Part shown: one piece after another, positions 29,164-59,950 of the stretch
Numbering within the stretch: position 1 is the first letter of the stretch
How the letters are laid out: each line of letters starts with the position of its first letter
Assembly: GCF_900240285.1 (NCBI RefSeq)
Contig: NZ_OESS01000003.1
Span: forward strand, 372,001 to 436,000
DNA: 64,000 nucleotides
Direction of reading: 5' to 3'
Source of the DNA: Halobacillus sp. Marseille-P3879
GTDB lineage: Bacteria; Bacillota; Bacilli; Bacillales; Halobacillaceae
Position numbers and translations under genes: made by a program
Notes under the pieces: model-generated
What the model was told of the DNA's origin: nothing
What the model saw: only the letters and a program-made list of their open reading frames with translations
Database searches by the model: none

Positions 29164-29210
29164 TTGTAATCGCTTTCACACTTCGTTATAATTTTATTGA
29201 AACGTTTCAA
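29164..29210 (+). promoter_or_regulatory. LacI promoter with cre-like box and TTGAAACGTTTCAA operator
   Basis: TTGTAA (29164-29169), 17 bp and TATAAT (29187-29192) form a strong promoter. TGTAATCGCTTTCA (29165-29178) is a cre box with one mismatch covering the -35 region. TTGAAACGTTTCAA (29197-29210) is a perfect palindrome at the expected transcription start. The arrangement predicts autorepression by the LacI protein plus catabolite repression. Confidence 0.82.
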
Positions 29211-29257
29211 CCAGAAAGAAAAATTGGCGCCGTTAAGGTAAGAGAAGAGGAAAAAGC

Positions 29258-30226
29258 TTGGCTACGTTAAAGGATGTTGCAAAGAAAGCGAATGTGAGTG
29301 TGGCGACTGCCTCTTATGTTATGAATGGCAGTGAGCTGATCACGAAACCGACGAAGGACAAAGTGATGCTGGCAGCTAAAGAGCTTGGATACCGACCGAA
29401 TGGAAATGCAAAGAATTTAAAGAAAAACAAAAGTAATATCATTGGGTTTTTCTTAAGTGGCTTTACAGGTCCGTTCTTCAATGAGCTGCTGGAAGGAATT
29501 CAGCGTACGGTGATCAAGAGAGGGTATGAGATGGTAGTATGTGCCTCGGATCATAAGCATCGTCTGCTGCTTGAGCAATATGTGGACGGGGCGATTATTC
29601 TTAACTACCACATTGGTGACGAGTTATTAGACAGCCTGGCAAATGATAAGTTTCCGATTGTTGTGCTGGATAGAGAGTTAGAGAATCCGCATATTAATCA
29701 AATATTACTGCCAAATAAGCTTGGTATGGAGCAGGCGGTTAACCATCTCGTCGATCAGGGTCATCAGCGTATCGGCTTTATTGCTGGGTCAATTGAATCC
29801 TTTGATGGGGAGAGTCGGCTAGAAGGTTTTAAAGAGTCTCTGGCAGAGAAAGGTCTGACGTTATATGATGGTGACTTGATCAGGGCTGACTTTACTGAAA
29901 TCAGCGGCCTGCTCAGCATGAATAAGTTTCTGGAGGAGAACTCGGACTATCCGACGGCTTTTGTGTCAGCCAACGATGAAATGGCGATGGGAGCAATTAA
30001 GGCCATTCAGCAAAAAGGACGAAAGGTGCCCGAAGATATAGCGCTGGTCGGTTTTGATGATATTGATTTAGCTCGTTATGCTCAGCCATCCCTAACAACC
30101 ATTCGCGTTCAAAAAAAACAATGGGGGCAGACGGCCGCTGAAACCCTTTTTGACATGCTGGAGAATAAAGAGGAGTTTAAAGAGGCGGAAATTCCGATTG
30201 AATTTATTCACCGGCACTCAAGCTAA
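29258..30226 (+). CDS. LacI-family repressor of the large glycan locus
   Basis: The N-terminal headpiece ATLKDVAKKANVSVATASYVMNG-type sequence (blocks LKDVAKKANVS and VATASYVMN) and the hinge with GYRPNGNAKNLKK are followed by a periplasmic-binding-like domain (IIGFFLSGF, LLEGIQRTVIKRGYEMVV, DQGHQRIGFIAGS, FVSANDEMAMGAIKAI, LVGFDDIDLARYAQPSLTTI). It begins with TTG after a GAAGAGG sequence. The ligand is presumably an oligosaccharide or sugar phosphate from the locus. A shared operator indicates that it also controls the phosphorylase gene about 16 kb downstream. Confidence 0.92.
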   Translation: MATLKDVAKKANVSVATASYVMNGSELITKPTKDKVMLAAKELGYRPNGNAKNLKKNKSNIIGFFLSGFTGPFFNELLEGIQRTVIKRGYEMVVCASDHKHRLLLEQYVDGAIILNYHIGDELLDSLANDKFPIVVLDRELENPHINQILLPNKLGMEQAVNHLVDQGHQRIGFIAGSIESFDGESRLEGFKESLAEKGLTLYDGDLIRADFTEISGLLSMNKFLEENSDYPTAFVSANDEMAMGAIKAIQQKGRKVPEDIALVGFDDIDLARYAQPSLTTIRVQKKQWGQTAAETLFDMLENKEEFKEAEIPIEFIHRHSS

Positions 30227-30264
30227 AGAGAGGTGTAATTATCGAAGTAAAAGATGAAAAATTA

Positions 30265-32565
30265 ATGATTAATGGAAAGGAAACGTGTGTATTTGGAGCT
30301 GAGCTTCATTACTTTCGGATTCCTAAAGAACAGTGGAGAACACGTATTCAACAGGTGAAGGAAGCCGGGATCAATATGATCAGTACTTATGTTCCATGGA
30401 CTTTTCATGAATATGAAGAAGGATTCATCGACTTAACGGGCGAGACGCGGGCAGAGCGTGATTTTCAAAGCTTTTTGCAGATCGTTTCTGAAGAAGAGAT
30501 GTATTGCCTCGTACGTCCTGGACCTTACGTCATGGCTGAAATTAAGGATCACGGAGTCCCGCCCTGGTTGATTGAACGTTATCCTGAAGCTCTGGCAAAG
30601 ACGGAGAAGGGAGCCAATCATCCAACCCGAGTGGTCAGTTACATGCACCCGACTTTTCTGGAAAAAGCGGAAAACTGGTATCACTCGGTCTGTAGAATCA
30701 TTGAGCCCTTCCAGATTGAGCACGGTGGTCCGGTGATCATGTTTCAGGTCGATAATGAAGTCGGAATGTTCCACTGGGTGACAAACGAAGGTGATTTTAA
30801 TGAAGTGACGAAGCAGCAATTTCAGACGTACTTAGAAGAAAATAAGATTGAGATTGATAACCCCTTTAATTACATGAAGGACAATCCAGGAGAGCATGAG
30901 GCAGAGATTCTCAAGCATGAATACTATTTATTTATGCGGGAGCATTACCGTGACTATCTGGAACATGTGAAGAAGATGGCCCGGCAAGGGGGGATTTCTA
31001 TTCCATTTATTATTAATATTCATGGCTTTCATACAATTGACTACTTAAAACGAGGAACGAGATATCCTATTGGAATTGGCCAGCTGATCGAAGCAGCAAA
31101 AATGGAGGATACGCTTGTAGCGGGAGACTATTACATCGGCAATATTGATTTTGATAACTATGTCGATATTGTTCTTGCGAATGCATTTACAAAAGCAATC
31201 CAGTCTCCGGAACAGCCATTGTTTTCTGCTGAATTCCAGGGCGGATCGGCCTCGGACAAGCCGAGACTGCAGCCGAGTACCTTCGATCTGACAACCCGGC
31301 TCTGCTTCGCGAATGGGATGAATGCGGTAAATTATTACATGTTTGCCGGAGGAGAGAATTATGAACAGATCGGTTTAAACGGGAGAAGACATGAATGGCA
31401 GGCACCATTATCTTCTTCAGGGGAAAAGAGGCCTCATTTTCACGTGATTCAGCATTTAGGTCACATGTACCGCACGTTTGAAAAACCGCTAATGAATGCG
31501 AAGCAGAAGACGCAGACATGCTTTGCTTTTTATCCGGATTACTACAAGACAGAGTATAGTAATCTCTTTTCTTCACCTTTAATTGAAACGTTTCAAAAAG
31601 AGCGTGATATGAACATATATAATGGTGTTGCCAAAGGGCTTCGTGTTAATCGAATCGTTTATGATAGTTTAAACATTCAAAATGGCGAACGTATCGATGT
31701 AGAAAAAGCACCGACACTGTGGATGTTTTCGATAGACTGGATGGACCCGAATGTTCAGCAAAAGTTGATCGATTATTTGGAGGGCGGAGGTAAGCTTGTT
31801 CTTTTTCCAACGATTCCAACAAAGGATTTGCTTGGCAGAGAATGTACCCTGCTAAAGGACTACATCGGCGTTAGCAGTAGGGGAAGAAAAGATGGGTTCG
31901 CGAAGGTAGGCAAGATTGACAGTGTCCAAACGAAATATATGGAAAGGTTTGAAGTGGAGGAAGGAGCGTTTGCCTGGTCAGAGGATGAATTACAAGAAGT
32001 CGCTGCGTTTGAGAAAAAACTGGGCCGGGGGAAGGTGGTTGTCTTTGGTATTGGCATGGAGCTGGATTTCGATTATAAATACGAGGTAATCCGGGAGCTT
32101 GCTGAAAGAACAGGCGTGGTGAGTGAATTTGCTGTTGAGCAGGAATTAGACGTTTCAGTTCGGGAGATTTCCGAGCAAAGCTATTTTGTTTTTCTTCACA
32201 ATCTGGATGAATATGAAAAAGAAACCGCCATTCAACGGAATAACGAGTTTCTATTCGGAGGAAATGCTGTGAGTGTCCCGGGCAGAAGCGGCCTTATGCT
32301 TCCGGTGAACATACAGCTTACTGATGAAGTAAAGATCGCTTATGCCACGGCAGAAGTATTTGATTTAACAGAATCGCCTGAAGCTTTGGAGGTAAAAGTG
32401 AAATTAAAACAGGCAGAAGACTGGATTGTTTTTGAAACGTTTAAATGGAGACCTGTAGAAACAACCGGGGTAAAAGTGAGCGAGGAAAAGGATGGGCGTT
32501 TTAAGGTTCATTTGCTTCCTACTTTAGAAAAAGAAGTGACAATTGAGTTTGTGAAATCAAGCTGA
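30265..32565 (+). CDS. GH35-like glycoside hydrolase, paralogue 1
   Basis: The catalytic barrel has GAELHYFRIP, STYVPWTFHEY and RPGPYVMAE. The presumed acid/base is Glu165 in QVDNEVGMF and the nucleophile Glu323 in SAEFQGG, positions that align with the paralogue at 48.5 kb. The rest (to 766 residues) is a glutamine-amidotransferase-like and beta-rich tail, longer than in classical GH35 beta-galactosidases. No signal peptide. The first ATG lacks a good ribosome binding site; homology with the paralogue extends nine codons further upstream, to an ATT codon at 30238 near AGAGGTG. GH35 includes beta-galactosidases and also a beta-1,2-glucan-active branch, so the linkage is open. Confidence 0.82.
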   Translation: MINGKETCVFGAELHYFRIPKEQWRTRIQQVKEAGINMISTYVPWTFHEYEEGFIDLTGETRAERDFQSFLQIVSEEEMYCLVRPGPYVMAEIKDHGVPPWLIERYPEALAKTEKGANHPTRVVSYMHPTFLEKAENWYHSVCRIIEPFQIEHGGPVIMFQVDNEVGMFHWVTNEGDFNEVTKQQFQTYLEENKIEIDNPFNYMKDNPGEHEAEILKHEYYLFMREHYRDYLEHVKKMARQGGISIPFIINIHGFHTIDYLKRGTRYPIGIGQLIEAAKMEDTLVAGDYYIGNIDFDNYVDIVLANAFTKAIQSPEQPLFSAEFQGGSASDKPRLQPSTFDLTTRLCFANGMNAVNYYMFAGGENYEQIGLNGRRHEWQAPLSSSGEKRPHFHVIQHLGHMYRTFEKPLMNAKQKTQTCFAFYPDYYKTEYSNLFSSPLIETFQKERDMNIYNGVAKGLRVNRIVYDSLNIQNGERIDVEKAPTLWMFSIDWMDPNVQQKLIDYLEGGGKLVLFPTIPTKDLLGRECTLLKDYIGVSSRGRKDGFAKVGKIDSVQTKYMERFEVEEGAFAWSEDELQEVAAFEKKLGRGKVVVFGIGMELDFDYKYEVIRELAERTGVVSEFAVEQELDVSVREISEQSYFVFLHNLDEYEKETAIQRNNEFLFGGNAVSVPGRSGLMLPVNIQLTDEVKIAYATAEVFDLTESPEALEVKVKLKQAEDWIVFETFKWRPVETTGVKVSEEKDGRFKVHLLPTLEKEVTIEFVKSS
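31583..31596. promoter_or_regulatory. Third copy of TTGAAACGTTTCAA, inside the GH35-like gene
   Basis: The same 14-bp perfect palindrome as at the lacI promoter and before the phosphorylase gene. An internal copy 2.4 kb from the promoter copy could act as an auxiliary operator for DNA looping or as a roadblock. A degenerate copy (TTGAAACGTTTAAA) also occurs at 32432. Confidence 0.6.
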
Positions 32566-32598
32566 TGGTTTACTAAAAAAATAGAAGAGGTGGATGAA

Positions 32599-33975
32599 AT
32601 GAAAAAATGGTTTTCTATTGTGGCGTTGTTTACTATCTTTACCATTCTGGCTGCGTGCTCTGACGATTCTTCATCAGATGGAGAAGGCGATTCAGGCGGT
32701 AGTGAAGACGGCGACAAAGTAACAATCAGCATTGCCAGCTGGGCTTTTGGATCTGAAGGGGAAACGAACCTCAACCGTTTGATGGTGGATGCATTTATGG
32801 AGGAGAACCCAGATATCAATGTGGAGATTGACGAATCAATCAGTGATCCCTGGGAAGAATCTCTAGCTTCTGCTGCGAGTGCCGGGGAGATGCCGGATGT
32901 TTTTTCTGTCTCTCATGTGCCCACGGGGATGGCAAATGACTGGATGATGGAGGTCAGTGAATTTGTTGGCGAAGACGAAGAGTATGAAATGCTGCCTGAT
33001 GCTGTAAAAGAAGCGGTTACTTACGACGACAGCATTTATGCTGTTCCTTCTTCACAGAATATTCTTGGATACTTCGTCAATCAAGACTTATATGAAGAGG
33101 CAAACCTGGATGTACCCTCAATAGGTATGAGCATTGATGAATTTGAAACCGCTGTCAGTGATATTACCAATGTTAATCAAGGCGTAATAGGGCTGAATGA
33201 AGCCAACGCGATTCCTGAATGGTATCCGGCTGCTGCTAGTGAAGATTTGGGCTGGTATACGTTTAACGACGGTTTTCACTTAGATAGTAATGAATTTATC
33301 GCCGGTGTTGATCTTGCCAATAACATCAACACAAACGGATATGCTTATGCGACGCTGTCAGAAGATGAAATGGCTAACTTCAACGGTGAAGACGCCAATG
33401 AAGTATGGATGAACAGTGAAATTGGCATGAGATGGGATGGGACATGGGCGATCGAAGCCTACGAGCAAAATGCGGACTTTGAATGGGATTTTGTCGGTAT
33501 CCCTGGAGACAGAACCGTAATTACACACGATTTCTATGGGATCTCAAGCTCTACTGAGCATCCTGAAGAAGCATATAAGCTAGCGAAATGGATGGGCTTC
33601 GGTAAGGAAGGGTACATGAAACGCATGGAACTTGCTGATGAGGAAGAAGAAGTAGGCTTATCTGGTGTACCGCTGATTACGGATGAAGAAGTACTAGACG
33701 AATACTTTGAAAGAGTAGACGTGCCGGGTCTAGAAGAAGCTTACGACAATATTGAGAATGCTGTAATCGAGCCGTTTAAGACTACTCCGGGCTATGGACA
33801 AGCTCGCTGGGAAGCCCCGACCGGCGTAGAGGTGGGCGATGAATCCAACGCGACCATGGGTGCATTAATTGATGCCAGCGTCTCAGGTCAGGTAAATATT
33901 GAGGACTACGCAAGTCAAATTAATGATTTAGCGAATCAGAAATATGAAGAAGAGCTAGAGACGATCGGTGAATAA
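32599..33975 (+). CDS. ABC importer substrate-binding lipoprotein (family 1), glycan locus
   Basis: The signal peptide ends in the lipobox LAAC (Cys20-21 region), followed by a Ser/Asp/Gly-rich linker. The mature domain has binding-protein landmarks: ISIASWAFGSEGE, GEMPDVFSVSHVP, DSIYAVPSSQNILGYFVNQDLYEE-type blocks, GMRWDGTWAIEAYEQ and GISSSTEHPEEAYKLAKWMG. AGAGGTGG five bases before the ATG chosen decides against an in-frame GTG nine bases upstream. It is the conventional binding protein of the locus; a second, much larger one follows. Confidence 0.92.
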   Translation: MKKWFSIVALFTIFTILAACSDDSSSDGEGDSGGSEDGDKVTISIASWAFGSEGETNLNRLMVDAFMEENPDINVEIDESISDPWEESLASAASAGEMPDVFSVSHVPTGMANDWMMEVSEFVGEDEEYEMLPDAVKEAVTYDDSIYAVPSSQNILGYFVNQDLYEEANLDVPSIGMSIDEFETAVSDITNVNQGVIGLNEANAIPEWYPAAASEDLGWYTFNDGFHLDSNEFIAGVDLANNINTNGYAYATLSEDEMANFNGEDANEVWMNSEIGMRWDGTWAIEAYEQNADFEWDFVGIPGDRTVITHDFYGISSSTEHPEEAYKLAKWMGFGKEGYMKRMELADEEEEVGLSGVPLITDEEVLDEYFERVDVPGLEEAYDNIENAVIEPFKTTPGYGQARWEAPTGVEVGDESNATMGALIDASVSGQVNIEDYASQINDLANQKYEEELETIGE

Positions 33976-34009
33976 AACGTTTATGGAAATAAGTTGAGGA
34001 GGTAACATC

Positions 34010-36943
34010 ATGAAGTCTAAAGTGCTTATATGGTCGCTGTTGATCTTGTTTTTCATCCCTCATATGCTCGTACATGCAAATGAAGGAGACGAAATGAATG
34101 CTGAAGAGCAGATCGAAGAGCAGAGTTATCACCTCGAACTCAACGAATGGAAGGAACAAGGTCTGGACAGCCCTGCTGATTTCAAGCAGGCTGTCTCCCC
34201 TTCTTCATTTACGAATATAGATGAAGGTGAGTGGCTGTCTTCATCGGAAAGCCAGGGTTATGGGGATCGCGTTTTCTATTGGCGTAATCAAGAGTCATTA
34301 ACGGTTGAAGTCGAGGTTGAAGAAGAAGGTTTATACGAGATAGGGTTTGATTATTTGCCACAAGGTGACTTGATCATGCCAATAGAGGGTGCAATCCAGG
34401 TTAACGGAGAGTATCCGTTTGCAGAAAGCCGGCAAATTGAGTTCCCGAGTAAATGGAAGAATGAAACGGAGGATTTTGAAATTGATCGATTAGGGAATGA
34501 CATCATTCCTGACCAGCAGCCTATCGAAGAATGGTCACATGTTAAAGCGGAAGATTCTACATATATGTACAAGCGGCCGCTTCAGTTTCATTTAGAAGAG
34601 GGTCAAAATACAATTACCCTGACGAACTTACGGGGAGAAATGCTCGTAGGGAATGTTCACATTACTTCTCAAACCTCAATACCTGAGTATGAGGATTACG
34701 TGGATGACTACCCTGATGCTGAAGAACAGGAAGACCTGCTCACCATTGAAGCAGAGCATCCTTCAGAGAAGAACAGTTCCTACATTCGACCTGAATCAAC
34801 AGAGGACCCATCCGTTCATCCCTATGACAGTGAGCACCTTATGTTGAATTCATTAGGGGGAGATTCGTGGAGTGAACCGGGTCAAACGGTCAGCTGGGAG
34901 GTTGAAGCAGAAGAGGCAGGGTTTTACCAGCTGTCTTTTAAGACGCAACAGGATAACGAATCCCGTTCCCCTGTATACCGAAAATTACTCATTAATGATC
35001 AAGTGCCTTTTAAGGAAGTAGAGTCGTATCAATTTCCCTACAATAAAGAATGGACGAATGAGACTGTAGGCAGCGAGGAAGGAGAACCTTTTCTCTTTTA
35101 TTTGGAGGAAGGGACGAATAAAGTCAGCCTGAAAGCCGATCCGTCTCCTCACGCTGATGTGTTATTTACGATCGATGAGGTAATGCAGGAAATTGACGAA
35201 CTGTCGCTTTCCATTCGTAAGCTTGTAGGGAATCAACAGGGTTCTCGTGACTGGGACATTGAGGAATATATCCCTGATATTGAGGAGCAGCTGCTGGGCT
35301 GGGCAGACAGGCTGAACGAAAAAGTAGAGTACCTGCAAACTTTAAACGATGGGGAAGAGTCTACTGAAGTCGCATCGTTAAAAATCGCAATTGACAAACT
35401 AGAGAACTTAGCAGACAACCCGGATGAAATTCCTAACCGTTTGAACCAATTGTCCACTGGATCCAATTCATCAGCGCAGCTACTGGGGGATATCTCTATG
35501 GACCTCTCCGCCCAGCCGCTGCTGCTCGACCGATTTTATGTTCATGGCGGTGATGAGAATCCACCAGGAGCAGAGGCTGATTTTTTTACAAAAACCAAGG
35601 ATTCTATCTCTGGATTCTTCCAATCCTTTACTGACGATAACCTGGCAACTTCCGATGTTGAGGATGACACGATCGAAGTATGGGTGAACCGACCGAGACA
35701 ATACGTAGAGCAGCTGCAAAATATGACGGATCAAAATTTCACCCCGGAAACAGGGATTAAGGTGAAGTATTCATTAATGCCGGATGAGCAGAAGCTTGTG
35801 CTGGCAAGCGCGGCCGACACGCAGCCGGACTTAGCATTTGGGATAAGCAACTGGGTTCCTTATGAGCTTGCGATTCGAGGATCTGCCGTTGATTTAAGGG
35901 AATTTGATGATTTCGGCGAAACAGGAGAGCAGTTCTCACCTGGTGCGTTTCTGCCTTTAACCATTGATGATAGCGTCTATGCTCTGCCTGAGACTCAGGA
36001 TTTCTTTGTTCAATTTTATCGAAAGGACATTGTGGAAGAGCTGGATATTCCCGTCCCTGACACATGGGATGAGGTGACTGACATTCTGCCTGAATTGCAG
36101 CGCTATGGGATGAACTATTATACGCCGTTAGCGGAAGAGTCTGCGTTCAAGCCGTTTCAGACGACTTCCCCGTTTATTTATCAATTTGGCGGAGGGCTAT
36201 ACGAGGATGATGGCACTGGAACAACGATAGATGAAGAAGAGGCTCTCGAAGGCATTCAGTTCATGGCTGACTTAAGTACAGTTTACAGTATGCCGCTTCA
36301 AGTCCCTAGATTTTATAACCATTTCAGGTATTCAACGCTGCCGATAGGTGTCGCACCATTTGGTACGTATGTTGAGCTTACAACGGCTGCTCCTGAAATT
36401 TCCGGGTGGTGGGATATTACCCCGCAGCCTGGAGTGGAACAGGAGGACGGCACTGTGGAACGCTGGGCTCCTGGATCGGGGCAGGCTTCGATGATGTTTG
36501 ATAAAAGCGGAAAGAAGGAGGACTCCTGGGAGTTATTGAAATGGTGGATGTCATCTGAGACACAGACAGAATTTGCTGCCACCTTACAGACGTTATACGG
36601 CCCTGAATACATGTGGAATACAGCTAACTTGGATTCCTTTGAACAATTGCCCTTGCCAGAAGAACATAAAGAAGTAATTCTTGAGCAGTGGGAGTATATG
36701 AAGGAAGTACCGAAGACGCCATATTCTTACATGGTGGAGCGTGAGATTAGTAATGTATGGAACAAAGTGGTATTTGATGGAGAAAATGCCCGCGCATCTG
36801 TTGATGACAGTGTGATTCTAATTAATCGTGAAATGCGGAGAAAGCTGGAAGAATTCGATTATATGGAAGACGGAGAACTCGTGAAGCCTTATGAAATTCC
36901 AACGATCGAAAAGATAGAAAGGTGGATGGAGACTGATGAATAA
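34010..36943 (+). CDS. Giant secreted substrate-binding protein with carbohydrate-binding-like N-terminal modules
   Basis: A 977-residue protein with a signal peptide (cleavage near VHA-NE, residues 23-24) and no lipobox. Two similar beta-rich modules (about 55-215 and 240-390) each contain 'YxxxGxxxSWxVEVEEAGxYxLxF' type repeats such as [13 protein letters not shown] and [13 protein letters not shown], resembling carbohydrate-binding modules. A helical section (about 395-540) follows. From about 552 to the end is a complete family 1 binding-protein domain ([55 protein letters not shown]). Its gene overlaps the next permease gene by eight bases. Such a fusion could hold a polymer while delivering ends to the permease. 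Confidence 0.85.
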
Positions 36944-37823
36944 CAGAGAACATTTAAGTACATCTGTGTTTCTAGCGCCCTATTTAATCTTGTTTTCGAT
37001 GTTCATCATCATTCCGGTGGTGGTTGCCGTCGGATTATCCTTTACGTACTTCAATACAATCGAATTCCCCTCCTTCATTGGACTTTCGAACTATGTGAAT
37101 ATCATTACGCAGGATAATACCTTTATGCAGTTTGTGCTGCCTAATACCTTAATTTTCTCACTGATTGTAGGTCCCGGCGGCTATATAATGGCCTTCTTAT
37201 TAGCCTGGATGCTGGCGCAAATATCGAAGGGGCCCCGCACCATTCTCGCTTTAATTCTTTTCTCACCGTCGATGACAGCGGGAGTAGCGATGGGGGTCGT
37301 ATGGAAAATCATTTTCAGCGGAGACCAGACAGGCTATTTAAATAATCTTTTAATATCGATGGGTTTTATTACCGAACCCATTCAGTTCCTTCAATCCCCT
37401 GAATACTTAATGATCATTATGATTCTCGTAACCTTATGGGGCAGTATGGGCGTTGGGTTTCTCGCGATGTTGTCAGGGGTGCTGAATATTGATAAGGAAA
37501 TCTATGAAGCGGCTTATATTGACGGAATTAGAAACCGCTTCCAGGAAATCATCTACATCACGATTCCTTCGATGAAGCCGCAAATGCTCTTTGGAGCGGT
37601 GATGGCTGTTGTGACGACATTCCAGGCGGGGTCAATCGGGGTTGAGCTATCAGGACAAAACCCGACACCGCAAAATGCTGGGCAGTTAATTGTAAACCAC
37701 TTAGAAGATTTCGGGTTCATCCGCTATGAAATGGGGTATGCGGCTGCCTTGTCTGTGTTACTGCTCTTATTTATTTACGGATTCTCGCGGGTTGCTATGA
37801 AGCTGTTCGCCGAAAAAGATTAA
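36936..37823 (+). CDS. ABC sugar permease, first pair (MalF-like)
   Basis: 295 residues with six membrane segments, starting [24 protein letters not shown]. The EAA loop reads [23 protein letters not shown], with an extra residue compared with the usual spacing. It follows the giant binding-protein gene with an eight-base overlap, which argues that those two work together. It pairs with the permease encoded next. Confidence 0.92.
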
Positions 37824-37853
37824 TAGATTACTAACTTACCAGGGGGTGTGAAC

Positions 37854-38732: not shown

Positions 38733-38750
38733 CGATTAGGAGGAAGGGAA

Positions 38751-43901: not shown

Positions 43902-43915
43902 AGGAGGGATAACGA

Positions 43916-44998: not shown

Positions 44999-45012
44999 TT
45001 GAAACGTTTCAA
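44999..45012. promoter_or_regulatory. LacI operator TTGAAACGTTTCAA before the phosphorylase gene
   Basis: A perfect 14-bp palindrome identical to the copy at the lacI promoter, placed 24 bp before the phosphorylase start. It implies a second promoter for the catabolic half of the locus, regulated by the same repressor. The -35/-10 elements are not clear; TCTAAAT just upstream may be the -10. Confidence 0.75.
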
Positions 45013-45035
45013 TAATTTAGTTGGAGGTATGTGAA

Positions 45036-48000: not shown

Positions 48001-48386
48001 AAGAGAATTTTGGCAAGCTGCGTGATGGGTCCGTTGCTGTAAAAGGGGGATGGCGAATTTATTCCAGCGGTCCTGGAATTTATATGAATCAGCTTATCTC
48101 GAATTGCTTAGGCATTCGTTTAGAAGGTGAGCATCTAGTAATTGATCCCGTTCTCACGGACGAGTTTGATGGCTTATGCTTTGATTTTCAAATCAATGAT
48201 AAACCTGTCACCTTTGTCTATTCGCTTGGAAAAGGAGAGAAGCGCGTCACCATTAATAATCAGCCGGTAGAAAAAGTGGAATTTGCCAAAAATACCTATC
48301 GTGAAGGCGGGTTTCGTATCGAACAGAAGGAGCTCGAGCAGCTGTGCAGGGAGAAAGCGAATGTGATCGAGATTTTTCTTCCTTAA
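45036..48386 (+). CDS. GH94-type (clan GH-Q) disaccharide/oligosaccharide phosphorylase
   Basis: About 1116 residues, no signal peptide. The N-terminal half is the beta-sandwich of GH94-like enzymes (GVWFWDVKAEG, VYGQDLGVADKGALRNNEAY, CSRQNQQQSTGFPYVQQGS). The helical barrel follows with AAWGTRDVCQGPMEYFM (near 630) and YGDGDWDD (Asp762/Asp764-765), equivalent to the GDWND block that carries the catalytic acid. Size and N-terminal pattern fit the GH94 branch of 1,2-beta-oligoglucan phosphorylases, known to be about 1.1 kilo-residues; GH149 and GH161 enzymes are alternatives of similar size. GGAGGT before GTG 45036 favours this start over an in-frame TTG at 45021. Phosphorolysis would yield a sugar 1-phosphate and conserve energy. 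Confidence 0.8.
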   Translation: MTLTKDSTITLTAGEYQFSFLTSGDLSEAAYKGIMINQLMTNPLDGSLNNLYLRVHRDDNIHAYPLLGINSRSDVAFGNRHAVWTGTVDDIHYEVVFHLTDRGVWFWDVKAEGQEAEIDIVYGQDLGVADKGALRNNEAYISQYLDHQIFEDEEKGWIVCSRQNQQQSTGFPYVQQGSLTRAAGYSTDGFQFFGQSYKETNQPVVLAESSLANEVYQYEFAYTALQSEKVKLSGEEQFIFYGALMENHEAAVSEPAYQETIQEAWDEVKASEPQDEEPVEKIEKTPSIGDVLCGESMPLSEIESLYPNRHQEEWDGDRLLSFFTDSYEHVVLKEKEKLVERPHGHIVMSGKNDRLKENTITSTSWMYGIFNAQLVVGNTNFNKLLTNARNALNILKTSGQRIYVEMDGTYQLLTMPSLYEVGFNYARWYYKTEDETFIITSYTTVDSPEVRLTVKAAGGGEYRYLVTNQVVMHPNEYEVPFHVRREGQTLTVTADETAMNTGVYPDLLYKIHINGATFDTADEQKLVTNVKPGCASLVVCDLDPADEWEMIIQGLLHGEDLEVEERSTESEIERYREYYRSVMNGFHLSEKGIETEQLNKVNALAWWYTHNMLVHFSVPHGLEQYSGAAWGTRDVCQGPMEYFMATQNYESVKEIIKTVYTHQFAEDGNWPQWFMFDKYSHIQAGESHGDIIVWPLKALSDYLTVTKDYQILQEKVPYTKRGDGFDLTEEKATIYEHAKKEINYIKEHFLHDTYLSSYGDGDWDDTLQPANAQLKQYMVSSWTVALTYQVVTRLADVLESFDLRHASELASLASGIEGDFKKYMLQTEVLPGFVYMEEPGEPELMLHPEDNTTGIDYRLLPMQRSIISELLTAEQAEQHYQIIKEKLSCPDGVRLMNRPAHYDGGVSTHFKRAEQASNFGREIGLQYVHAHIRFVEAMAKLGKKEEVWQGLQKINPINIQEVVPNAEIRQSNAYFSSSDGKFNTRYEAEENFGKLRDGSVAVKGGWRIYSSGPGIYMNQLISNCLGIRLEGEHLVIDPVLTDEFDGLCFDFQINDKPVTFVYSLGKGEKRVTINNQPVEKVEFAKNTYREGGFRIEQKELEQLCREKANVIEIFLP

Positions 48387-48392
48387 ATTAAA

Positions 48393-48521: not shown

Positions 48522-48539
48522 GAAAGGAGAGATTTGTGC

Positions 48540-50945
48540 ATGATTGAAATCACGGATAAGCAAATATTGATTGATGGCAAGCCACAAATCATCATGTGTG
48601 GCGAGATCCATTATTACCGGCTCGACCGCTCCCAGTGGCAGGACCGGATTGATAAGCTGAAGGAGGCAGGCTGCAATGCTGTCGCCTCCTATGTTCCATG
48701 GCTTTGTCATGAAGAATTCGAAGGTACGATCGATTTAGAAGGAAAGACACGTCCTGAACTGGATTTGGCTGGGTTTATTGACCTATGTGCTCAAAATGAT
48801 CTTTACTTCTTCTTACGTCCCGGGCCGTTCATTATGGCAGAAATGAAAAATGAGGGCATTCCTTACTGGGTAATTGACAAGCATCCCGACATCGTTCCAG
48901 TTACATGGGACGGAAAGCAGACGTTAGCGAAAACGCTGGATTATACGGCCCCTGCTTTTTTACAGGAGACGAAGAAATGGTATGCCGCCGTTATGGAGGT
49001 GGCAGCACCGAGATTACAGCCGAATGGAGGAAATATCATTGGTGTCCAATTGGATAATGAGGTGGGGATGCTCTCCTGGGTGAGTAATTGTCCGGACTTA
49101 ACCGACCATGTGCTGAATGATTTCACAGAGTGGCTGCGCGAGCGCTATGGCGAAGAAGCGCTGAGAGAGCGTTATCCATTTGAGCTGAAAGGAAGTTATT
49201 CTTCCTTCCGTTCTCCAGAAGAAAGCTATGTATCAGAGCTGCATTTTGATCTAGGTTATTTTATGCGTCACAGGTTTGCAGGGTATATTGCGGAATTAAG
49301 AAGCTATGCGGAGGAATTCGGAGTAAAAGGTGTGCCATTTGTTGTTAATATTCACGGAACCGGCGGCGGGCGAGGGTTTACGTACCCAATTGGAATCAGC
49401 CAGCTGTATGAGTCATATACCCAGGATCCGGGGTATTTATCGGGATCAGACATTTATTTTGGCGATTTAAATATGAATACCTTTCAGGACCTCTACGTCA
49501 TCAATGGCTTTATGGATGCAGTTCATCGGCCGGAGCAGCCTTTAACGTCTGTGGAGTTTAACTGCGGGGATGGCAATTTCGGCAATAATTACAGCGGCCG
49601 ACTTGACCCTTCAGCTTCGGACTTTAAAGCACGTATGTGCATTGCGCAGGGGAACCGGCTCATTAATTATTATTTAATGACCGGAGGAAAAAATTATCGC
49701 CTCAGCGATCAGCGAGACGATGGGAATGACCGGATTGCTTCCACAGGAGAGCGCCATGGGTTTGCGGCCCCTATCAGTCCGGAAGGGGAGCTGAATTATA
49801 CTTTTCCAAGAATGGCGCGATCGATTCAAACGATCATGGCAGTTTCAGATAAGCTGTCTGTAATGCATGAGGAGAGAGATGACGTTGCCTTTGCCTTTAT
49901 CCCTGACTATTACATGACCGAAGCTCGTTATCCGCACAGTTCAAAGATGAAAGAAATTTATCAAAATATAGAGGCTAATCGATCGACTGCCGCGTGGGAA
50001 AATATGGCCCGTGCAATGCTTCTGGCGGGCTATAGATATGGCTCTGTCGATATTCAAAACAAACCAGTCGATCCAGCAGTCAGCTCCGTTTTAGCCGTAC
50101 CATCCGCCCGGTACATGGCCAAAAAGGTACAGCTGAAATTAGCAGACTACGTAACAAACGGGGGCAGCTTAGTAGTGTATGGGGAGCTCCCGGCTTACGA
50201 TATGGAAGGAAAATCATGCCGCATTCTGGAGGAAACGTTGGATGTAAAAGCTGCAAACACCCGCCTGGCAGGCCCGGATCATCACTTATCAGTTTACACC
50301 GATGGTTGGGCGCAGGGCAGAGCTGAAGTAAGAGTTCATAAAGCCCAGGTATTTGAATTAGGGGCACAAGCTGAACCTTTGCTTCGGGTGTATGGAACGG
50401 ATGAACCGTGTGGTTTTGATACTAAAGCAGGAAAGGGAAGAGCTGTAGTCATCGCTGCACCTTATCCGTGTGATCCTGGCTTATTTCAAAAAGCATTAGA
50501 GAGACTGGGCTCAAAACCTGCCTTAACGAATGATAGTAAATACTATGGTGTTTTCATGACATCCACGGCTTCTAAAGAAGGTGAGAGATTTCTTCATATC
50601 CTTAATTTAGATGGATTTGATAAAGAAATACATGTTTATGAAGAGGGAAGCGAGTTGTTTAATGGCCGGAAGCTTGAGCTGCAAGCAAAGGAGGGTGTAA
50701 TGCTTCCTGTGAATGTTGGAATTGGAGACGTGACGATCGAATATGCCACTGCTGAAATTAATAAGATTAACACCGATTCGATTCGTTTCCGACTTACCCA
50801 GTCAGAAGATGTAATCGCTTTAAGAACTGACAGGAAAATAGCTCCGAGTGAAGAGTACACCGTTCATCAAGAGAATGAAGTAACTTACCTATTTTCAAAA
50901 AAACACGCAAAAATAGATGATCAGCTCACGGTAAACTTTAATTAG
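48540..50945 (+). CDS. GH35-like glycoside hydrolase, paralogue 2
   Basis: 801 residues, clearly paralogous to the enzyme encoded at 30.3 kb. Shared blocks are GEIHYYRLDRSQW, ASYVPWLCHEEFEG and RPGPFIMAEMKNEG. The acid/base is Glu174 in QLDNEVGMLSW and the presumed nucleophile Glu339 in SVEFNCGDGNF. The C-terminal part has the same amidotransferase-like and beta domains (YVTNGGSLVVYGELP, NLDGFDKEIHVYEEG, VMLPVNVGIGDVTIEYATAE). Cytoplasmic. AAAGGAGAG favours ATG 48540 over an in-frame TTG six bases upstream. Two paralogues in one locus suggest different linkages or positions of the same glycan. Confidence 0.85.
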   Translation: MIEITDKQILIDGKPQIIMCGEIHYYRLDRSQWQDRIDKLKEAGCNAVASYVPWLCHEEFEGTIDLEGKTRPELDLAGFIDLCAQNDLYFFLRPGPFIMAEMKNEGIPYWVIDKHPDIVPVTWDGKQTLAKTLDYTAPAFLQETKKWYAAVMEVAAPRLQPNGGNIIGVQLDNEVGMLSWVSNCPDLTDHVLNDFTEWLRERYGEEALRERYPFELKGSYSSFRSPEESYVSELHFDLGYFMRHRFAGYIAELRSYAEEFGVKGVPFVVNIHGTGGGRGFTYPIGISQLYESYTQDPGYLSGSDIYFGDLNMNTFQDLYVINGFMDAVHRPEQPLTSVEFNCGDGNFGNNYSGRLDPSASDFKARMCIAQGNRLINYYLMTGGKNYRLSDQRDDGNDRIASTGERHGFAAPISPEGELNYTFPRMARSIQTIMAVSDKLSVMHEERDDVAFAFIPDYYMTEARYPHSSKMKEIYQNIEANRSTAAWENMARAMLLAGYRYGSVDIQNKPVDPAVSSVLAVPSARYMAKKVQLKLADYVTNGGSLVVYGELPAYDMEGKSCRILEETLDVKAANTRLAGPDHHLSVYTDGWAQGRAEVRVHKAQVFELGAQAEPLLRVYGTDEPCGFDTKAGKGRAVVIAAPYPCDPGLFQKALERLGSKPALTNDSKYYGVFMTSTASKEGERFLHILNLDGFDKEIHVYEEGSELFNGRKLELQAKEGVMLPVNVGIGDVTIEYATAEINKINTDSIRFRLTQSEDVIALRTDRKIAPSEEYTVHQENEVTYLFSKKHAKIDDQLTVNFN

Positions 50946-50996
50946 ATTCCTTGTTGCTCTAAAGCAAATTCTATTTTAAAAGAAAGGAAGATTCAT

Positions 50997-52466
50997 ATGA
51001 AAATTCTTTACATTGATATTGACTCTCTTCGCCCAGACCACCTGGGGTCTTATGGTTACCACCGCAACACATCACCTAACATGGACCGGATTGCTGAGAA
51101 GGGTGTCAGGTTTACAAATTATTATGCTTCGGACGCGCCCTGTGCTCCTTCTAGAAATGCGATGTTTAATTCTAGATTTGGAATTCATACAGGCTCCATT
51201 AACCACGGCGGATTGGATGCCGATGTACGGCCGATAGGCGAGGATCGTCCTTTCAATCATCATCATAGTCCTTATCAGGCTTGGGTAGAGGAACTGCGCT
51301 TTAAAGGTCATCATACGGCAATGATCAGTCCATTTCCTGGCCGCCATGCCAAGTGGAATGTACTCGAAGGCTTTCTGGAAATGCATGATACCGGCAAGCA
51401 TGCAGGTGAAACGGCTGGTGACGTCTCAAGGGAAGCTTTACGCTGGATTAAAGGAAGAGGGACGGAAAAAGAGGACTGGTTCCTGTATTTGAATTTCTGG
51501 GATCCGCACACACCTTACCGTACGCCTGAGGAATATGGCAATCCATTTGAAAACGACCCGGCCCCTGATTGGCTGACGGATGAGATCATTGCTGAACACC
51601 GAGAAAGTTATGGACCGATGAGTGCTAGGGAGATTCCAGACCGCAACCAATGGCCGAATCTGCCTGAGGAAATCGCGTCGGTAGAAGATTTCAAGCGCTG
51701 GATTGATGGATATGATACGGCGATCCGCCATGTAGATGATCATATCGGCAAGCTGCTTCAAGCTTTAGAAGAAGAAGGGATGCTGGAGGAAACAACAATT
51801 ATTCTATCTGCGGATCATGGGGAAAACCAGGGAGAATTAAACGTTTATGGAGACCACCAGACAGCTGACCATATTACAAGTCGTATACCTCTGATTATGG
51901 CAGGTCCGGATTTAAAAGAAGGTCATGTTGATGAAGATTTTCATTACCAGATTGACCTTGGTCCGACATTGATTGAACATGTTGGAGGAAAACAGAGCGA
52001 GCGCTGGGATGGGACAAGTTTTCTGCCTGCAATAACTGAGGGCGCCGAAGCCGGCCGTCCGTACCTCGTGGTCAGTCAGGCTGCATGGAGCTGCCAGCGT
52101 GGCGTTCGGTTTGACAATTGGATGCTGATTCGTACGTATCACGATGGGTTGAAGGATTTCCCTGATCTGATGCTGTTTGATATAGAGATAGATCCTCATG
52201 AAACGAACAATCTAGTTGATGAGAAACCGGAGATTGTAGGTAAAGGGCTTAGGCTGCTGGATGAGTGGGTGGCCGAACAAATGGCAACTTCAGATTCTCC
52301 GACAGATCCTATGTGGAATGTCATTCAAGAAGGCGGACCATTTCATACAAAAGGTGATTATCACGGCTATGTGAAGAGGCTGCGCAATGAAGGCAGGAAT
52401 GAAGCGGCCGACCGTCTGGAACGAAGGCACCAGAAATTTATAAAAATCTATCAGAGGGAGGGATAA
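50997..52466 (+). CDS. Formylglycine-dependent sulfatase (alkaline phosphatase superfamily), cytoplasmic
   Basis: N-terminal metal motif IDIDSLRPDHLGSYGY, then the activation signature CAPSR at residues 49-53, whose Cys49 is to be converted to formylglycine. Further metal ligands lie in LSADHGENQGEL near residue 272. The C-terminal subdomain is short (489 residues in total). It lacks a signal peptide, unlike most bacterial glycan sulfatases. The gene for a formylglycine-generating enzyme lies 2.1 kb downstream in the same direction. Formylglycine enzymes of this fold can also be phosphodiesterases or phosphonate hydrolases, so the ester cleaved could be sulfate or a substituted phosphate. Confidence 0.88.
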   Translation: MKILYIDIDSLRPDHLGSYGYHRNTSPNMDRIAEKGVRFTNYYASDAPCAPSRNAMFNSRFGIHTGSINHGGLDADVRPIGEDRPFNHHHSPYQAWVEELRFKGHHTAMISPFPGRHAKWNVLEGFLEMHDTGKHAGETAGDVSREALRWIKGRGTEKEDWFLYLNFWDPHTPYRTPEEYGNPFENDPAPDWLTDEIIAEHRESYGPMSAREIPDRNQWPNLPEEIASVEDFKRWIDGYDTAIRHVDDHIGKLLQALEEEGMLEETTIILSADHGENQGELNVYGDHQTADHITSRIPLIMAGPDLKEGHVDEDFHYQIDLGPTLIEHVGGKQSERWDGTSFLPAITEGAEAGRPYLVVSQAAWSCQRGVRFDNWMLIRTYHDGLKDFPDLMLFDIEIDPHETNNLVDEKPEIVGKGLRLLDEWVAEQMATSDSPTDPMWNVIQEGGPFHTKGDYHGYVKRLRNEGRNEAADRLERRHQKFIKIYQREG

Positions 52467-52470
52467 GTCT

Positions 52471-53748
52471 TTGAAAAATACTACTGAGCTTTATGACACG
52501 CTTCCTGATCAAGTGAAGGATTTTTTCGACAAACAGTATGAGGCGGCCTACCGCTTGCTTGAGGCTTCCCGTCATCCTGAGACTGGCTTATATGCAGATA
52601 GTTATAAAACGTTTGAAGACAATCCAGAACGAAAATGCTCAATTGCAGCTACGGGAGTCGGACTGATCGGACTTTGCGTGGCGGATATTGAAGGCTGGGA
52701 GCAGGATGCCGCAGCTAAAGTGAAGCTCACTTTAAATGCAGCCATGGGAAATATTGAAGGGTGCCGCCCAGCTCGCGATCCGAAAACAGGCTTTTTTGCC
52801 CACTTTGTCGATATGAAAACAGGAGAGAATATGCAGTCTGAGATTTCGACGATTGACACTTCCTTATTAGTAGCTGGGGCCCTGTTTGCCGGCCAGCATT
52901 TTATAGAGAAAGATCCGGAGATTGAAAAGATGGCACGTGCATTGTTAAAAGAAATTGACTGGAACGTTATAGTTGCTGATAAAGAGAAAGGGTCAATCAA
53001 TATGGTGGTTAAAGACGGGGAAGGTATTATGCCGCTCCCCGCCTTTAACGAATATGTACTGGCAGCTCACCTGGCGCTGCTTGGACAGCCGGAAAATGAA
53101 GCGATACAAGACTTGTGGTATCAAAACTTTTCCGAGGACAAAATCCCGGACTTACCTCAAGTTCATTATCGCGATATTCCTGTTTTGACAGACATGAATG
53201 GAGCACATGGACGGGCATCTTTTTTATCTTCTTTCGTCCATCAATTTCCTTTTTACCTCGTTCCTGAATATGCAGACAGTCCAGTCTATAGGGATTACTA
53301 TAAAAATGCTTGTCTCGCCGATCAGTTAAAATGGAAAGAACTTGGTGACGTTCCCTCTTATGTGTGGGGATATGGAGCAGGGCCAAATGACGGACTGCAT
53401 GGCGGTTATCATGCTGATCAAATCAACAACTCCCCGGGAGATATAGCCTCCGCTTATATCGTGGCCGGCTTTTTGCCCGTTAATCCGGCGGGAATTTATG
53501 ATTTGTATGCTTTATATCGTCTTCACCTTCCGTTTGATACCTATGAAAACAGGGAAGATCATGAAGATGAGAAAAAATTACGTGCGGCATACCGCTACGG
53601 TCTGCATCGCTGCTCGTGGTGGCATTTAGAACAGCCGGAAAGATGGTATCCAACGAAGGTGACGTTAATTGACTGGAGTTCCATGCTGTACGGGTTGACA
53701 GCTTATAAACGTGGCATGTCCTTTTTTACCGACCGTCTTATCCGATGA
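52471..53748 (+). CDS. (alpha/alpha)6-barrel glycoamylase/GH144-like protein
   Basis: 425 residues, helical-repeat pattern, no signal peptide. Blocks such as CSIAATGVGLIGLCVA, TGFFAHFVDMKTG, EISTIDTSLLVAGALFAGQHF-type helices, NEYVLAAHLALLG and the late YVWGYGAGPNDG with PVNPAGIYDLYALY recall the glycoamylase-like domain (PF10091) that includes GH144 endo-beta-1,2-glucanases. Similarity is by pattern only; acidic candidates are in IDTSL and EY. It starts with TTG after GAGGGAGGG, five bases after the sulfatase stop, so the two are surely cotranscribed. Other helical-barrel glycosidases are possible. Confidence 0.6.
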   Translation: MKNTTELYDTLPDQVKDFFDKQYEAAYRLLEASRHPETGLYADSYKTFEDNPERKCSIAATGVGLIGLCVADIEGWEQDAAAKVKLTLNAAMGNIEGCRPARDPKTGFFAHFVDMKTGENMQSEISTIDTSLLVAGALFAGQHFIEKDPEIEKMARALLKEIDWNVIVADKEKGSINMVVKDGEGIMPLPAFNEYVLAAHLALLGQPENEAIQDLWYQNFSEDKIPDLPQVHYRDIPVLTDMNGAHGRASFLSSFVHQFPFYLVPEYADSPVYRDYYKNACLADQLKWKELGDVPSYVWGYGAGPNDGLHGGYHADQINNSPGDIASAYIVAGFLPVNPAGIYDLYALYRLHLPFDTYENREDHEDEKKLRAAYRYGLHRCSWWHLEQPERWYPTKVTLIDWSSMLYGLTAYKRGMSFFTDRLIR

Positions 53749-53754
53749 ACTAAC

Positions 53755-53790
53755 AAAGGATCAACTAGATGATTAGTTGGTCCTTTTATT
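53755..53790 (+). terminator. Terminator-like hairpin between the GH144-like and EEP genes
   Basis: AAAGGATCAACTA (53755-53767) pairs over 13 bp with TAGTTGGTCCTTT (53774-53786), with one wobble and a 6-nt loop, followed by TATT. It probably ends or reduces the main transcript before the last two genes. Confidence 0.82.
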
Positions 53791-53813
53791 CATAAGAGAA
53801 AGAAGGTGTGATA

Positions 53814-54587
53814 ATGGAATTTAAAATCGGTACCTTCAATGTAAGGGTGAATTTAGAGCAGGATGGGGAAGATTCATGGCCACATAGAGCCGACAAGGTT
53901 ACACAGATGGTTCGCTGCCACCAGCCCGATGTTCTTGGCATTCAGGAAGCCTTGATTGACATGACAAGAGATATTGAGGAAGCCTTATCCGATTATAAAT
54001 GGATCGGGGAAGGAAGACGAGGTGGACTCTCTGATGAACTGTGCCCGATTTTCTATAACGATCTTACAGTAGAATGCAGGCACTATGGCCAGTTCTGGCT
54101 TTCTGAACAGCCTGAGCTTGCTGGAAGCATCAGCTGGGGCAGTGATTTTCCGAGAATTTGTACGTGGGGGCACTTCCGTTTCAGGCAGGCGCCTTATGAA
54201 GAGTTTATAGTTTACAACACTCATCTCGACCATATCAGTTCTTCAGCGAAAGAAAACGGGTCCGCATTACTCTGGCAAAGGCTTTATGCTCATTATATAA
54301 GGAAAAAGGTTCCGATCATCTTGACGGGGGACTTCAACAGTGAACCAGAGAGTAGAGTCATTCGAAGTTTAAGAGGAAAACTAATCCTGCAAGATGCATT
54401 TTCCTCTCTGGATGGTGCTCCGGGACGAACATTCCATCATTTTAAAGGCGGCACAGAAGGGGAACCCATTGATTATATCTTCTGCACGACAGATGTTAAG
54501 ATTGGACAAACAGAGATTGATCGAAAGACAGTGAATGGCCGTTATCCATCTGATCATTATCCCGTTTTTACCACTTTAGATTTATGA
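53814..54587 (+). CDS. Endonuclease/exonuclease/phosphatase (EEP)-family protein
   Basis: A 257-residue metal-dependent phosphodiester/phosphomonoester hydrolase. Fold motifs in order: IGTFNVRVN with the first metal-site Asn, DVLGIQEAL with the metal-binding Glu, YNTHLDHISS with the catalytic His/Asp, LTGDFNSEPES with the Asp-x-Asn pair, and PIDYIFCT and SDHYPVFTTL at the end. AAGGTG five bases before ATG 53814 decides the start. No signal peptide. In a sugar locus it may remove a phospho-substituent rather than act on nucleic acid; that is inference. Confidence 0.88.
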   Translation: MEFKIGTFNVRVNLEQDGEDSWPHRADKVTQMVRCHQPDVLGIQEALIDMTRDIEEALSDYKWIGEGRRGGLSDELCPIFYNDLTVECRHYGQFWLSEQPELAGSISWGSDFPRICTWGHFRFRQAPYEEFIVYNTHLDHISSSAKENGSALLWQRLYAHYIRKKVPIILTGDFNSEPESRVIRSLRGKLILQDAFSSLDGAPGRTFHHFKGGTEGEPIDYIFCTTDVKIGQTEIDRKTVNGRYPSDHYPVFTTLDL

Positions 54588-54600
54588 AGGGAGAAGTCTC

Positions 54601-55548
54601 ATGAAGGAAGAGAATGTACGACCCTGCTGTCAGGCCAGCCGGGCTGATGTTGAAGCAGGTACGAAAAAAACAAAAGCGTCAAAGGTAACGCTGGCAGATA
54701 AGAAGGTGAAGTTAAAAGAAAGAATGGTCCGCCTGCCTGGCGGAGAATTTTTAATGGGGACGGATGATAAAGATGGATTTCCATTTGACGGAGAAGGTCC
54801 TGTCAGAGAAGTGAAAATCGACCCTTTTTATATCGACTCGCACACGGTAAGTAATGCCGATTTCAAGCAATTTGTAGAAGAGACAGGCTATATGACAGAG
54901 GCCGAGCAATATGGCTGGTCGTTTGTTTTCTACCAATTTATCGCCCCTGATCCTAAATTTAAGGTCCAGAAGCTGCCGCAGACACCCTGGTGGCTTGCGG
55001 TCGAAGGGGCATATTGGTACCAGCCGGAGGGACCGGGTTCATCAATAGACGACCGTCTTGACCATCCTGTTATTCATGTTTCCTGGAATGATGCTGAAGC
55101 CTTCTGCAAATGGGCTGGAAAAAGGCTGCCGACGGAAGCAGAATGGGAATACGCAGCACGTGGCGGCCTTGAACAAAAGAAATATCCGTGGGGAGATGAG
55201 TTGATGCCAGACGGAGAACATTACTGCAACATCTGGCAGGGTAAATTTCCCCGTGAGAATACCGAGGAAGATGGTTATTTCGGCACTGCCCAGGTGCAGG
55301 CATTTCCGACCAACGACTATGGCTTGTATCATATGGCTGGAAATGTATGGGAATGGTGCTCAGATTCGTTTGCTGTACCCGGCAGGCCGAACAATCCGTC
55401 TTCCAAAGTGATGAGAGGCGGATCCTACCTGTGCCACCACTCTTATTGCAATCGCTACCGGGTTGCAGCCCGCAGCTCGAACACAATGGACAGCTCCACA
55501 GGCAATATGGGTTTTCGATGTGTAACGGATCATCTGGCGGACTTTTAA
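54601..55548 (+). CDS. Formylglycine-generating enzyme (sulfatase activator)
   Basis: Oxidises the Cys of the CxPSR motif in the sulfatase to formylglycine using O2 and copper. The FGE-sulfatase fold is complete: RLPGGEFLMGTD, PFYIDSHTVSNADFKQFVEETGY, HPVIHVSWNDAEAFCKWAG, LPTEAEWEYAARGG, GNVWEW, and the active-site block GGSYLCHHSYCNRYR with Cys278 and Cys283 spaced exactly as Cys336/Cys341 of the human enzyme. This separates it from the many FGE-fold proteins without such cysteines. An N-terminal CC pair (9-10) is typical of bacterial FGE. It follows the EEP gene by 13 bp and is cytoplasmic, matching its cytoplasmic client. Confidence 0.95.
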   Translation: MKEENVRPCCQASRADVEAGTKKTKASKVTLADKKVKLKERMVRLPGGEFLMGTDDKDGFPFDGEGPVREVKIDPFYIDSHTVSNADFKQFVEETGYMTEAEQYGWSFVFYQFIAPDPKFKVQKLPQTPWWLAVEGAYWYQPEGPGSSIDDRLDHPVIHVSWNDAEAFCKWAGKRLPTEAEWEYAARGGLEQKKYPWGDELMPDGEHYCNIWQGKFPRENTEEDGYFGTAQVQAFPTNDYGLYHMAGNVWEWCSDSFAVPGRPNNPSSKVMRGGSYLCHHSYCNRYRVAARSSNTMDSSTGNMGFRCVTDHLADF

Positions 55549-55560
55549 CGAATAACGAGG

Positions 55561-55618
55561 AATCAGCCTTTAATGTAATTCTGAGATCTGACTCAGATGC
55601 AAAAAGGCTGATTTTTTT
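55561..55618 (+). terminator. Terminator at the end of the glycan locus
   Basis: AATCAGCCTTT (55561-55571) pairs perfectly with AAAGGCTGATT (55603-55613), with a nested CTGAG/CTCAG stem, and is followed by a run of T residues. Confidence 0.92.
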
Positions 55619-59930: not shown

Positions 59931-59950
59931 CAGCGTTGAGGAGGATACAG

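Follow-up and report, generated by a model that had tools for sequence, protein, structure and literature searches.

We analysed a 64,000-nucleotide stretch of the Halobacillus sp. Marseille-P3879 genome (contig NZ_OESS01000003.1, positions 372,001 to 436,000; hereafter the window). It contains a block of 16 + strand genes that runs from LacI, starting at window position 29258, to the formylglycine-generating enzyme (FGE), ending at 55548. The block is probably a locus under LacI control that serves to consume β-1,2-glucans bearing anionic groups, with envelope glucans of bacteria as the likeliest substrate. The β-1,2-glucose polymer is best known from Gram-negative envelopes. Judged by homology, this is a β-1,2-glucan locus and not a galactan one, because five of its proteins agree on the linkage: the 1,2-β-oligoglucan phosphorylase (SOGP), two GH35 enzymes of the β-1,2-glucosyltransferase (IaSGT) type, a GH194-type protein and a binding protein with a Lin1841-like domain. 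An initial annotation of this DNA had described a one-directional glycan-utilisation unit with a probably substituted substrate. All the genes it named are present on one strand, with families that agree with the Pfam and NCBIfam scans used here to name the 16 proteins, and gene neighbourhoods and co-occurrence support its view of a single unit. The features are as follows, in window coordinates with strand.

29197-29210, no strand: probable LacI operator, the perfect palindrome TTGAAACGTTTCAA, upstream of lacI; one of three exact copies in the assembly
29258-30226, +: LacI-family regulator (Pfam LacI 6e-17, Peripla_BP_3 3e-37)
30265-32565, +: GH35 enzyme A (GH35A), β-1,2-glucosyltransferase (IaSGT) type (PDB 7vkx, 1.6e-84)
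31583-31596, no strand: second exact copy of the palindrome, inside gh35A (G000:C7:403583-403596)
32590-33975, +: solute-binding protein (SBP) 1, lipoprotein-type (SBP_bac_8 1e-21; hydrophobic N-terminus)
34010-36943, +: giant binding protein, 977 aa, SBP domain in the C-terminal half (family profile match to 5ysb, Lin1841, 2.1e-21)
36936-37823, +: permease A1 (Pfam match below cut-off, 23.4 versus 26.4 bits)
37848-38732, +: permease A2 (Pfam)
38751-40772, +: NHL-TPR-Yip1-like membrane protein (Pfam; Yip1 27.5, just under the cut-off of 28.6)
40765-43035, +: DUF5696 protein, predicted exported, with a GH129-like fold in the model (DUF5696 E=4e-185)
43032-43901, +: permease B1 (Pfam)
43916-44875, +: permease B2 (Pfam)
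44999-45012, no strand: third exact copy of the palindrome, upstream of SOGP (palindrome search)
45036-48386, +: SOGP, GH94 (SOGP_N 9e-105, SOGP_2nd 1e-116; PDB 5h3z 6e-298)
48534-50945, +: GH35 enzyme B (GH35B), IaSGT type (PDB 7vkw/7vkx, about 1e-56)
50997-52466, +: formylglycine-dependent sulfatase-superfamily hydrolase, C49-A-P-S-R53 (Pfam Sulfatase 4e-38)
52471-53748, +: GH194-type endo-β-1,2-glucanase, 425 aa, without export signal (PDB 8xuk 8.8e-32; catalytic pair D129/E194)
53808-54587, +: EEP hydrolase, mannosyl-6-phosphatase subfamily (profile match to 4c1r, 9.3e-52)
54601-55548, +: FGE (PF03781 3e-82; PDB 5nxl 8e-114, 6s07 2e-113)

The backbone enzymes carry the assignment. SOGP contains the SOGP_N, SOGP_2nd, GH94 catalytic and SOGP_4th domains and matches LpSOGP over nearly its full length. 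IaSGT was the closest match of both GH35s, and alignments read by eye indicated that each of them keeps 7/7 of the residues (Y52, E102, N175, E176, N275, E343, Y378) that PMC8861115 lists as conserved -1-site or catalytic residues. Arg349 of IaSGT, at subsite +1, is kept in neither, and the same source describes it as not conserved in many homologs. We therefore rejected a sulfated galactan or other β-galactoside as substrate, to which the GH35s had initially been taken to point, since these enzymes are of the glucosyltransferase type and the remaining backbone enzymes indicate β-1,2-glucan. The 425-aa protein has no Pfam match but aligns with PgSGL3 (8xuk) over nearly its full length, and the catalytic D148/E214 of PgSGL3 correspond to its D129/E194 (by counting along the alignment, where the chain positions are numbered 128 and 194 with an offset of 20). 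PgSGL3 is the enzyme that defines GH194 (PMC12102758). The earlier designation of this protein as GH144-like was replaced by GH194-like, as the GH144 enzyme XcSGL (8xul) matched at only 5.6e-9. The SBP domain of the giant binding protein was nearest to Listeria Lin1841. Lin1841 is probably the Sop-n-binding protein to which PMC8861115 refers. Pfam and NCBIfam scans found no Listeria-type GH3 β-glucosidase beside SOGP in the window locus. For SOGP itself, GTG at 45036 is a likelier start than the listed TTG at 45021, which lies across a probable ribosome-binding site. Scans for promoters and terminators gave numbers close to chance (28 versus 23.0, standard deviation 3.6; 12 versus 11.6) and were not used.

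Export was called from a simple hydropathy scan of N-termini and not with a signal-peptide program. Hydrophobic N-terminal stretches were seen in both SBPs, the NHL protein and the DUF5696 protein, and were absent from LacI, both GH35s, SOGP, the sulfatase homolog, GH194, EEP and FGE. This agrees with the initial view that the enzymes lack export signals and the transport proteins are exported or membrane-bound. The further claim that the oligosaccharide is imported intact was too strong. A GH144-type protein with an export-like start is encoded in the same genome, in a locus with a one-mismatch copy of the palindrome, and the DUF5696 protein is predicted to be exported with a glycosidase-like fold.

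The expectation that these genes travel together was borne out in the neighbourhood check. Four relatives (G001 and G009, which are of the same genus, G003 and G011) keep 16/16 genes in the same order and orientation at 58-97% identity, with the first SBP of G003 matched as two overlapping pieces, perhaps through a frameshift. Several relatives also have a GH3-type gene directly before SOGP and GH144-type genes within the locus. Across 299 genomes of the order, DUF5696 occurred in 44, SOGP in 56 and both in 33 (Fisher 1e-19), in tests uncorrected for shared ancestry, and 20 of the 58 DUF5696 places lay within 25 kb of SOGP. Sulfatase homologs of at least 70% identity were present in 11 genomes (one a fragment), accompanied by DUF5696 in 11/11 and by SOGP in 10/11; by place, 10/12 were within 25 kb of DUF5696 and 7/12 within 25 kb of SOGP. 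GH194 was found in 16 genomes, with DUF5696 in 16/16 and SOGP in 15/16. A sulfatase scan of the genome collection returned 16 loci in 15 genomes, 13 of which carry at least one locus gene besides FGE; one is titled Paenibacillus bovis, and the genus names of the other 15 are presumably in or near Bacillaceae. Locus L087 has another arrangement, SOGP-GH35-sulfatase-FGE plus EEP-sulfatase, and its genome gave no match to DUF5696; its sulfatase-family genes are 27% and 39% identical to that of the window.

The 14-bp LacI-type palindrome TTGAAACGTTTCAA occurs in three exact copies in the 4.17-Mb assembly, all in the locus. Allowing one mismatch gave five further sites, one inside gh35A (window 32432), one beside a GH3/GH144-type locus on another contig and three elsewhere; the pattern read backwards, as a control, gave one site at this tolerance. 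The palindrome also lies upstream of lacI in 3/3 relatives checked (G011, G001, G009). In 16 genomes that we selected, exact copies were found in 10, at 24 sites that by coordinate comparison all lie within 20 kb of DUF5696, and the backwards control gave 0 in 16/16. Four genomes of the same genus without a full DUF5696 match (G002, G004, G005, G010) have no exact copy. The palindrome is a probable operator, presumably bound by the LacI of the locus. The GH3/GH144-type locus (G000:C5) encodes a LacI that is 39% identical to that of the window, an esterase, a plain ABC importer, a GH3 enzyme and a protein with an export-like start in Pfam Glycoamylase, a family that we take to be GH144. Its GH3 is a 67-68% homolog of the one preceding SOGP in locus L023, and in genomes G240, G245 and G281 a GH3 of this type stands immediately before SOGP, beside a plain ABC importer. 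The GH3 and the exported GH144-type enzyme could supply steps absent from the window locus.

Several observations weigh against this reading of the locus. In a fifth relative, G027, the SBP, the module and SOGP are retained and a GH35B stands apart on the opposite strand, but there is no sulfatase, GH194, EEP, FGE, GH35A or close lacI within 40 kb (a GH194 lies elsewhere in its genome). Sulfatase locus L030 has none of the locus genes, L027 and L033 have FGE only, and FGE was inside the flank read at only 7 of the 16 sulfatase loci; sulfatases at 47-49% identity occur in other settings too. Only 6 of the 16 genomes with GH194 have it within 25 kb of DUF5696. Distant copies of the module are part of the giant-SBP profile, which fits further sugar-binding SBPs as well (CbpB, 1.8e-17). 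G027 and G193 carry the module but no exact TTGAAACGTTTCAA. The operator copy at G000:C5 may be used by that locus's own LacI, so a shared operator is no proof of one regulator for both loci. In addition, no sulfatase was found in known β-1,2-glucan clusters in the open-licence literature, and the substituent is for this reason read here from the enzymes themselves.

Seven of the genes form a transport module in the order giant SBP, two permeases, NHL/Yip1, DUF5696, two permeases. All seven genes stood in this order in 32 of 39 Bacillota neighbourhoods (the window, 5/5, 13/13, 2/2 and, phylum-wide, 11/18), several of which come from related genomes or from one and the same genome. In the remaining seven, a piece was absent, moved or not called as an open frame, and L100, L101 and L110 have only NHL-DUF5696-permease B1-B2 in place. 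NHL immediately precedes DUF5696 in 18/18 phylum-wide neighbourhoods, and several distant versions carry NHL and Yip1 as two separate genes. DUF5696 was present in 26 of the 299 genomes of the phylum sample. Judged by its gene neighbours, the importer module is not tied to β-1,2-glucan, because Pfam places GH10 genes beside the distant modules of L072 and L073, and GH43 as well in L072, and genes beside those of L074 and L085 look arabinose-type by eye. The AlphaFold model of the DUF5696 protein (pLDDT 79, pTM 0.83) matched GH129 first (NagBb 5wzn, ZgGH129 5opq; Foldseek E 3e-33, target TM about 0.7), then GH101 and GH36. Identity to GH129 is 12-14%, and the family profile matches GH129 chains weakly (6e-6 to 5e-5). 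In the barrel region D555 and E649 are the only invariant acids (22/22). N589, 34 residues beyond D555, is also invariant and may occupy a GH129-like acid/base place. GH101 D764 and E796, taken from structure titles, are 32 apart. DUF5696 may thus be a non-hydrolytic or altered GH129 relative. In the open-licence literature we found nothing on DUF5696 and only an unrelated paper on NHL/Yip1 transport; nor did we find a description there of an importer of this type, which looks new.

The recurrence of the formylglycine hydrolase, FGE and EEP with β-1,2-glucan enzymes likely implies removal of anionic or ester groups, and esterase genes also recur in relatives' clusters (two were tested with Pfam). 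Like the importer, this set of hydrolase, activator and EEP looks new. The formylglycine motif CxPxR (C49-x-P51-x-R53) is present in 20/20 sulfatase homologs, the broken copy in L033 being left out. The best matches of the FGE are true FGEs, and both cysteines of the L-C-x-x-S-Y-C motif, which have a known role in FGE, are present. EEP groups with mannosyl-6-phosphatase 4c1r and two close chains of unknown function. Three side observations come from other loci. In L033 (Peribacillus frigoritolerans, 10001-12041) sulfatase and FGE are both in pieces, indicating that this step can decay; a supposedly broken sulfatase in G049 was dropped as a further case, as an open 482-aa frame is present there. 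Adjacent sulfatase-family genes, two or three in number, occur in L023 and L031; they are 77-81% and 49% identical to that of the window and perhaps serve more than one substituent position. A DUF2961 protein lies within the Gracilibacillus β-1,2-glucan cluster of L022 (7728-8807), with a similar-looking one in L057.

Whether the group removed is a sulfate or a phosphodiester bears on two rival accounts. The lysine of the G-K-W-H motif and a lysine after the DHG motif are active-site lysines of S1 sulfatases. If an ordinary S1 sulfatase acted here on sulfated β-1,2-glucan, with EEP doing an unrelated phosphatase job, the Pfam Sulfatase match and a Foldseek ranking with carbohydrate 6-O-sulfatases at the top (7lha, 7lj2, 7snj) and phosphonate monoester hydrolase 2vqr only 32nd would be accounted for; we give this a substantial chance, though a less than even one. 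The model is weak: its mean pLDDT is 66, and in the active-site loops (residues 42-52 and 275-295) it falls below 50. For that reason specificity can hardly be read from the fold ranking. Moreover, residues 281-297 contain no lysine in 20/20 homologs and have an invariant histidine instead, whereas the same loop carries lysine in five aligned reference structures, and the alignment with 2qzu has a gap at the G-K-W-H motif. The substituents named for these bacterial glucans in the review PMC11842490 are succinyl, acetyl, phosphoglycerol and phosphoethanolamine, and no word there begins with 'sulfat'.

The alternative, to which we would assign a probability just short of even, is that the formylglycine enzyme is a phosphodiesterase that would cut phosphoglycerol or phosphoethanolamine from glucose, the residual phosphate being cleared by EEP. 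Here the subfamily that EEP shares with 4c1r fits, phospho-groups belong to the natural substituents just named, and in sequence the phosphonate monoester hydrolases and a 'phosphoric/sulfuric ester hydrolase PehA' match about as well as sulfatases do. This account has to set aside the preference of the structure search for sulfatases, a missing lysine that is common to phosphonate hydrolases too, and the lack by Pfam of a glycerol-phosphate gene among the 16. On balance we lean slightly to the phospho-type, because EEP, the natural substituents and the missing lysines speak for it and the fold ranking for sulfate. No paper on an 'oligoglucan phosphorylase' together with a sulfatase, or on BT3783, was found in the open-licence literature.

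In the pathway we propose, the glucan would be held outside the cell by the giant binding protein and the surface proteins NHL/Yip1 and GH129-like DUF5696, possibly once the exported GH144-type enzyme of the unlinked locus has cut it. The four permeases would bring it into the cell together with an ATPase whose gene lies outside the locus. In the cytoplasm, FGE would activate the formylglycine enzyme, which would remove the anionic ester group, and EEP would take phosphate off the sugar. GH194 would cut the chain, SOGP would phosphorolyse it to glucose-1-phosphate and sophorose, the two GH35s would move or release glucose, and the unlinked GH3 β-glucosidase would complete the breakdown of sophorose. 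The backbone chemistry and gene set are supported by homology and co-inheritance; we infer the regulation, mode of transport, identity of the substituent and order of steps. That a transport operon and an enzyme operon with different substrates merely adjoin here seems very improbable. The DUF5696 module does occur without these enzymes next to GH10/GH43 genes, SOGP is accompanied by a plain ABC transporter in G240, G245 and G281, and a gap with a palindrome separates permease B2 from SOGP; however, four relatives keep the 16 genes together, TTGAAACGTTTCAA precedes both lacI and SOGP, and β-1,2-glucan enzymes are found in 9 of 13 module neighbourhoods, the other four being distant copies.

The initial statement that no system with this set has been characterised is true of the complete set within the open-licence literature searched, and not of the backbone enzymes, which match characterised Listeria and Ignavibacterium clusters. 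Judged by its genes, the locus would combine a known part, β-1,2-glucan utilisation of the Listeria/Ignavibacterium kind, with a different importer module and a decoration-removing set. LacI control is presumably shared with the Listeria cluster. With the Listeria innocua SOGP cluster (Lin1839, Lin1840, Lin1841; PMC3960220, PMC4757417 and PMC8861115) it has in common SOGP, a related oligosaccharide-binding protein and ABC transport. In contrast to that cluster, it lacks a GH3 (one is elsewhere in the genome) and adds the seven-gene module, two GH35s, GH194, the formylglycine enzyme, FGE and EEP. The Ignavibacterium album IaSGT cluster, as described in PMC8861115, likewise has a GH35 β-1,2-glucosyltransferase, a SOGP-related GH94 and ABC transport, but its transport differs and it has GH144 in place of GH194; 'sulfatase' occurs 0 times in the main text of that paper. 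PgSGL3 has a signal peptide (PMC12102758), whereas none was seen in the window protein. EEP falls by profile in the subfamily of 4c1r, with a glucan instead of a mannan context. We take 4c1r to be of Bacteroides origin.

Outside the locus, the window contains a polysaccharide pyruvyl transferase-like gene just upstream (27915-29075, - strand), a further sugar locus (8761-14981) with an SBP, two genes positioned like a permease pair and a GH38 α-mannosidase, and two neighbouring phosphorylase-superfamily (PNP_UDP) proteins (58953-60760), the second with a lipoprotein-like start (LTGC), which would be unusual in a nucleoside phosphorylase.

The periplasmic glucans that Gram-negative bacteria make are important in virulence and symbiosis (PMC11842490, among other sources). 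Nothing on the removal of their decorations by glucan-eating bacteria was found in the open-licence literature, and the locus offers a defined enzyme set for studying it. Through the module, DUF5696, a domain of unknown function, gains a place in a recurrent importer that occurs in several Bacillota groups next to genes for different polysaccharides. We advance tentatively, and with considerable doubt, a combined reading in which this is both a new class of Bacillota polysaccharide importer, with a β-propeller membrane protein, with DUF5696 as a GH129-derived surface receptor or feeder instead of a classic hydrolase, and with substrates swapped between β-1,2-glucan and arabinoxylan, and the first phospho-decoration-stripping pathway for β-1,2-glucans, in which a formylglycine phosphodiesterase would act before an EEP sugar phosphatase. 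If this is true, Gram-positive bacteria could eat the periplasmic glucans of Gram-negative ones.

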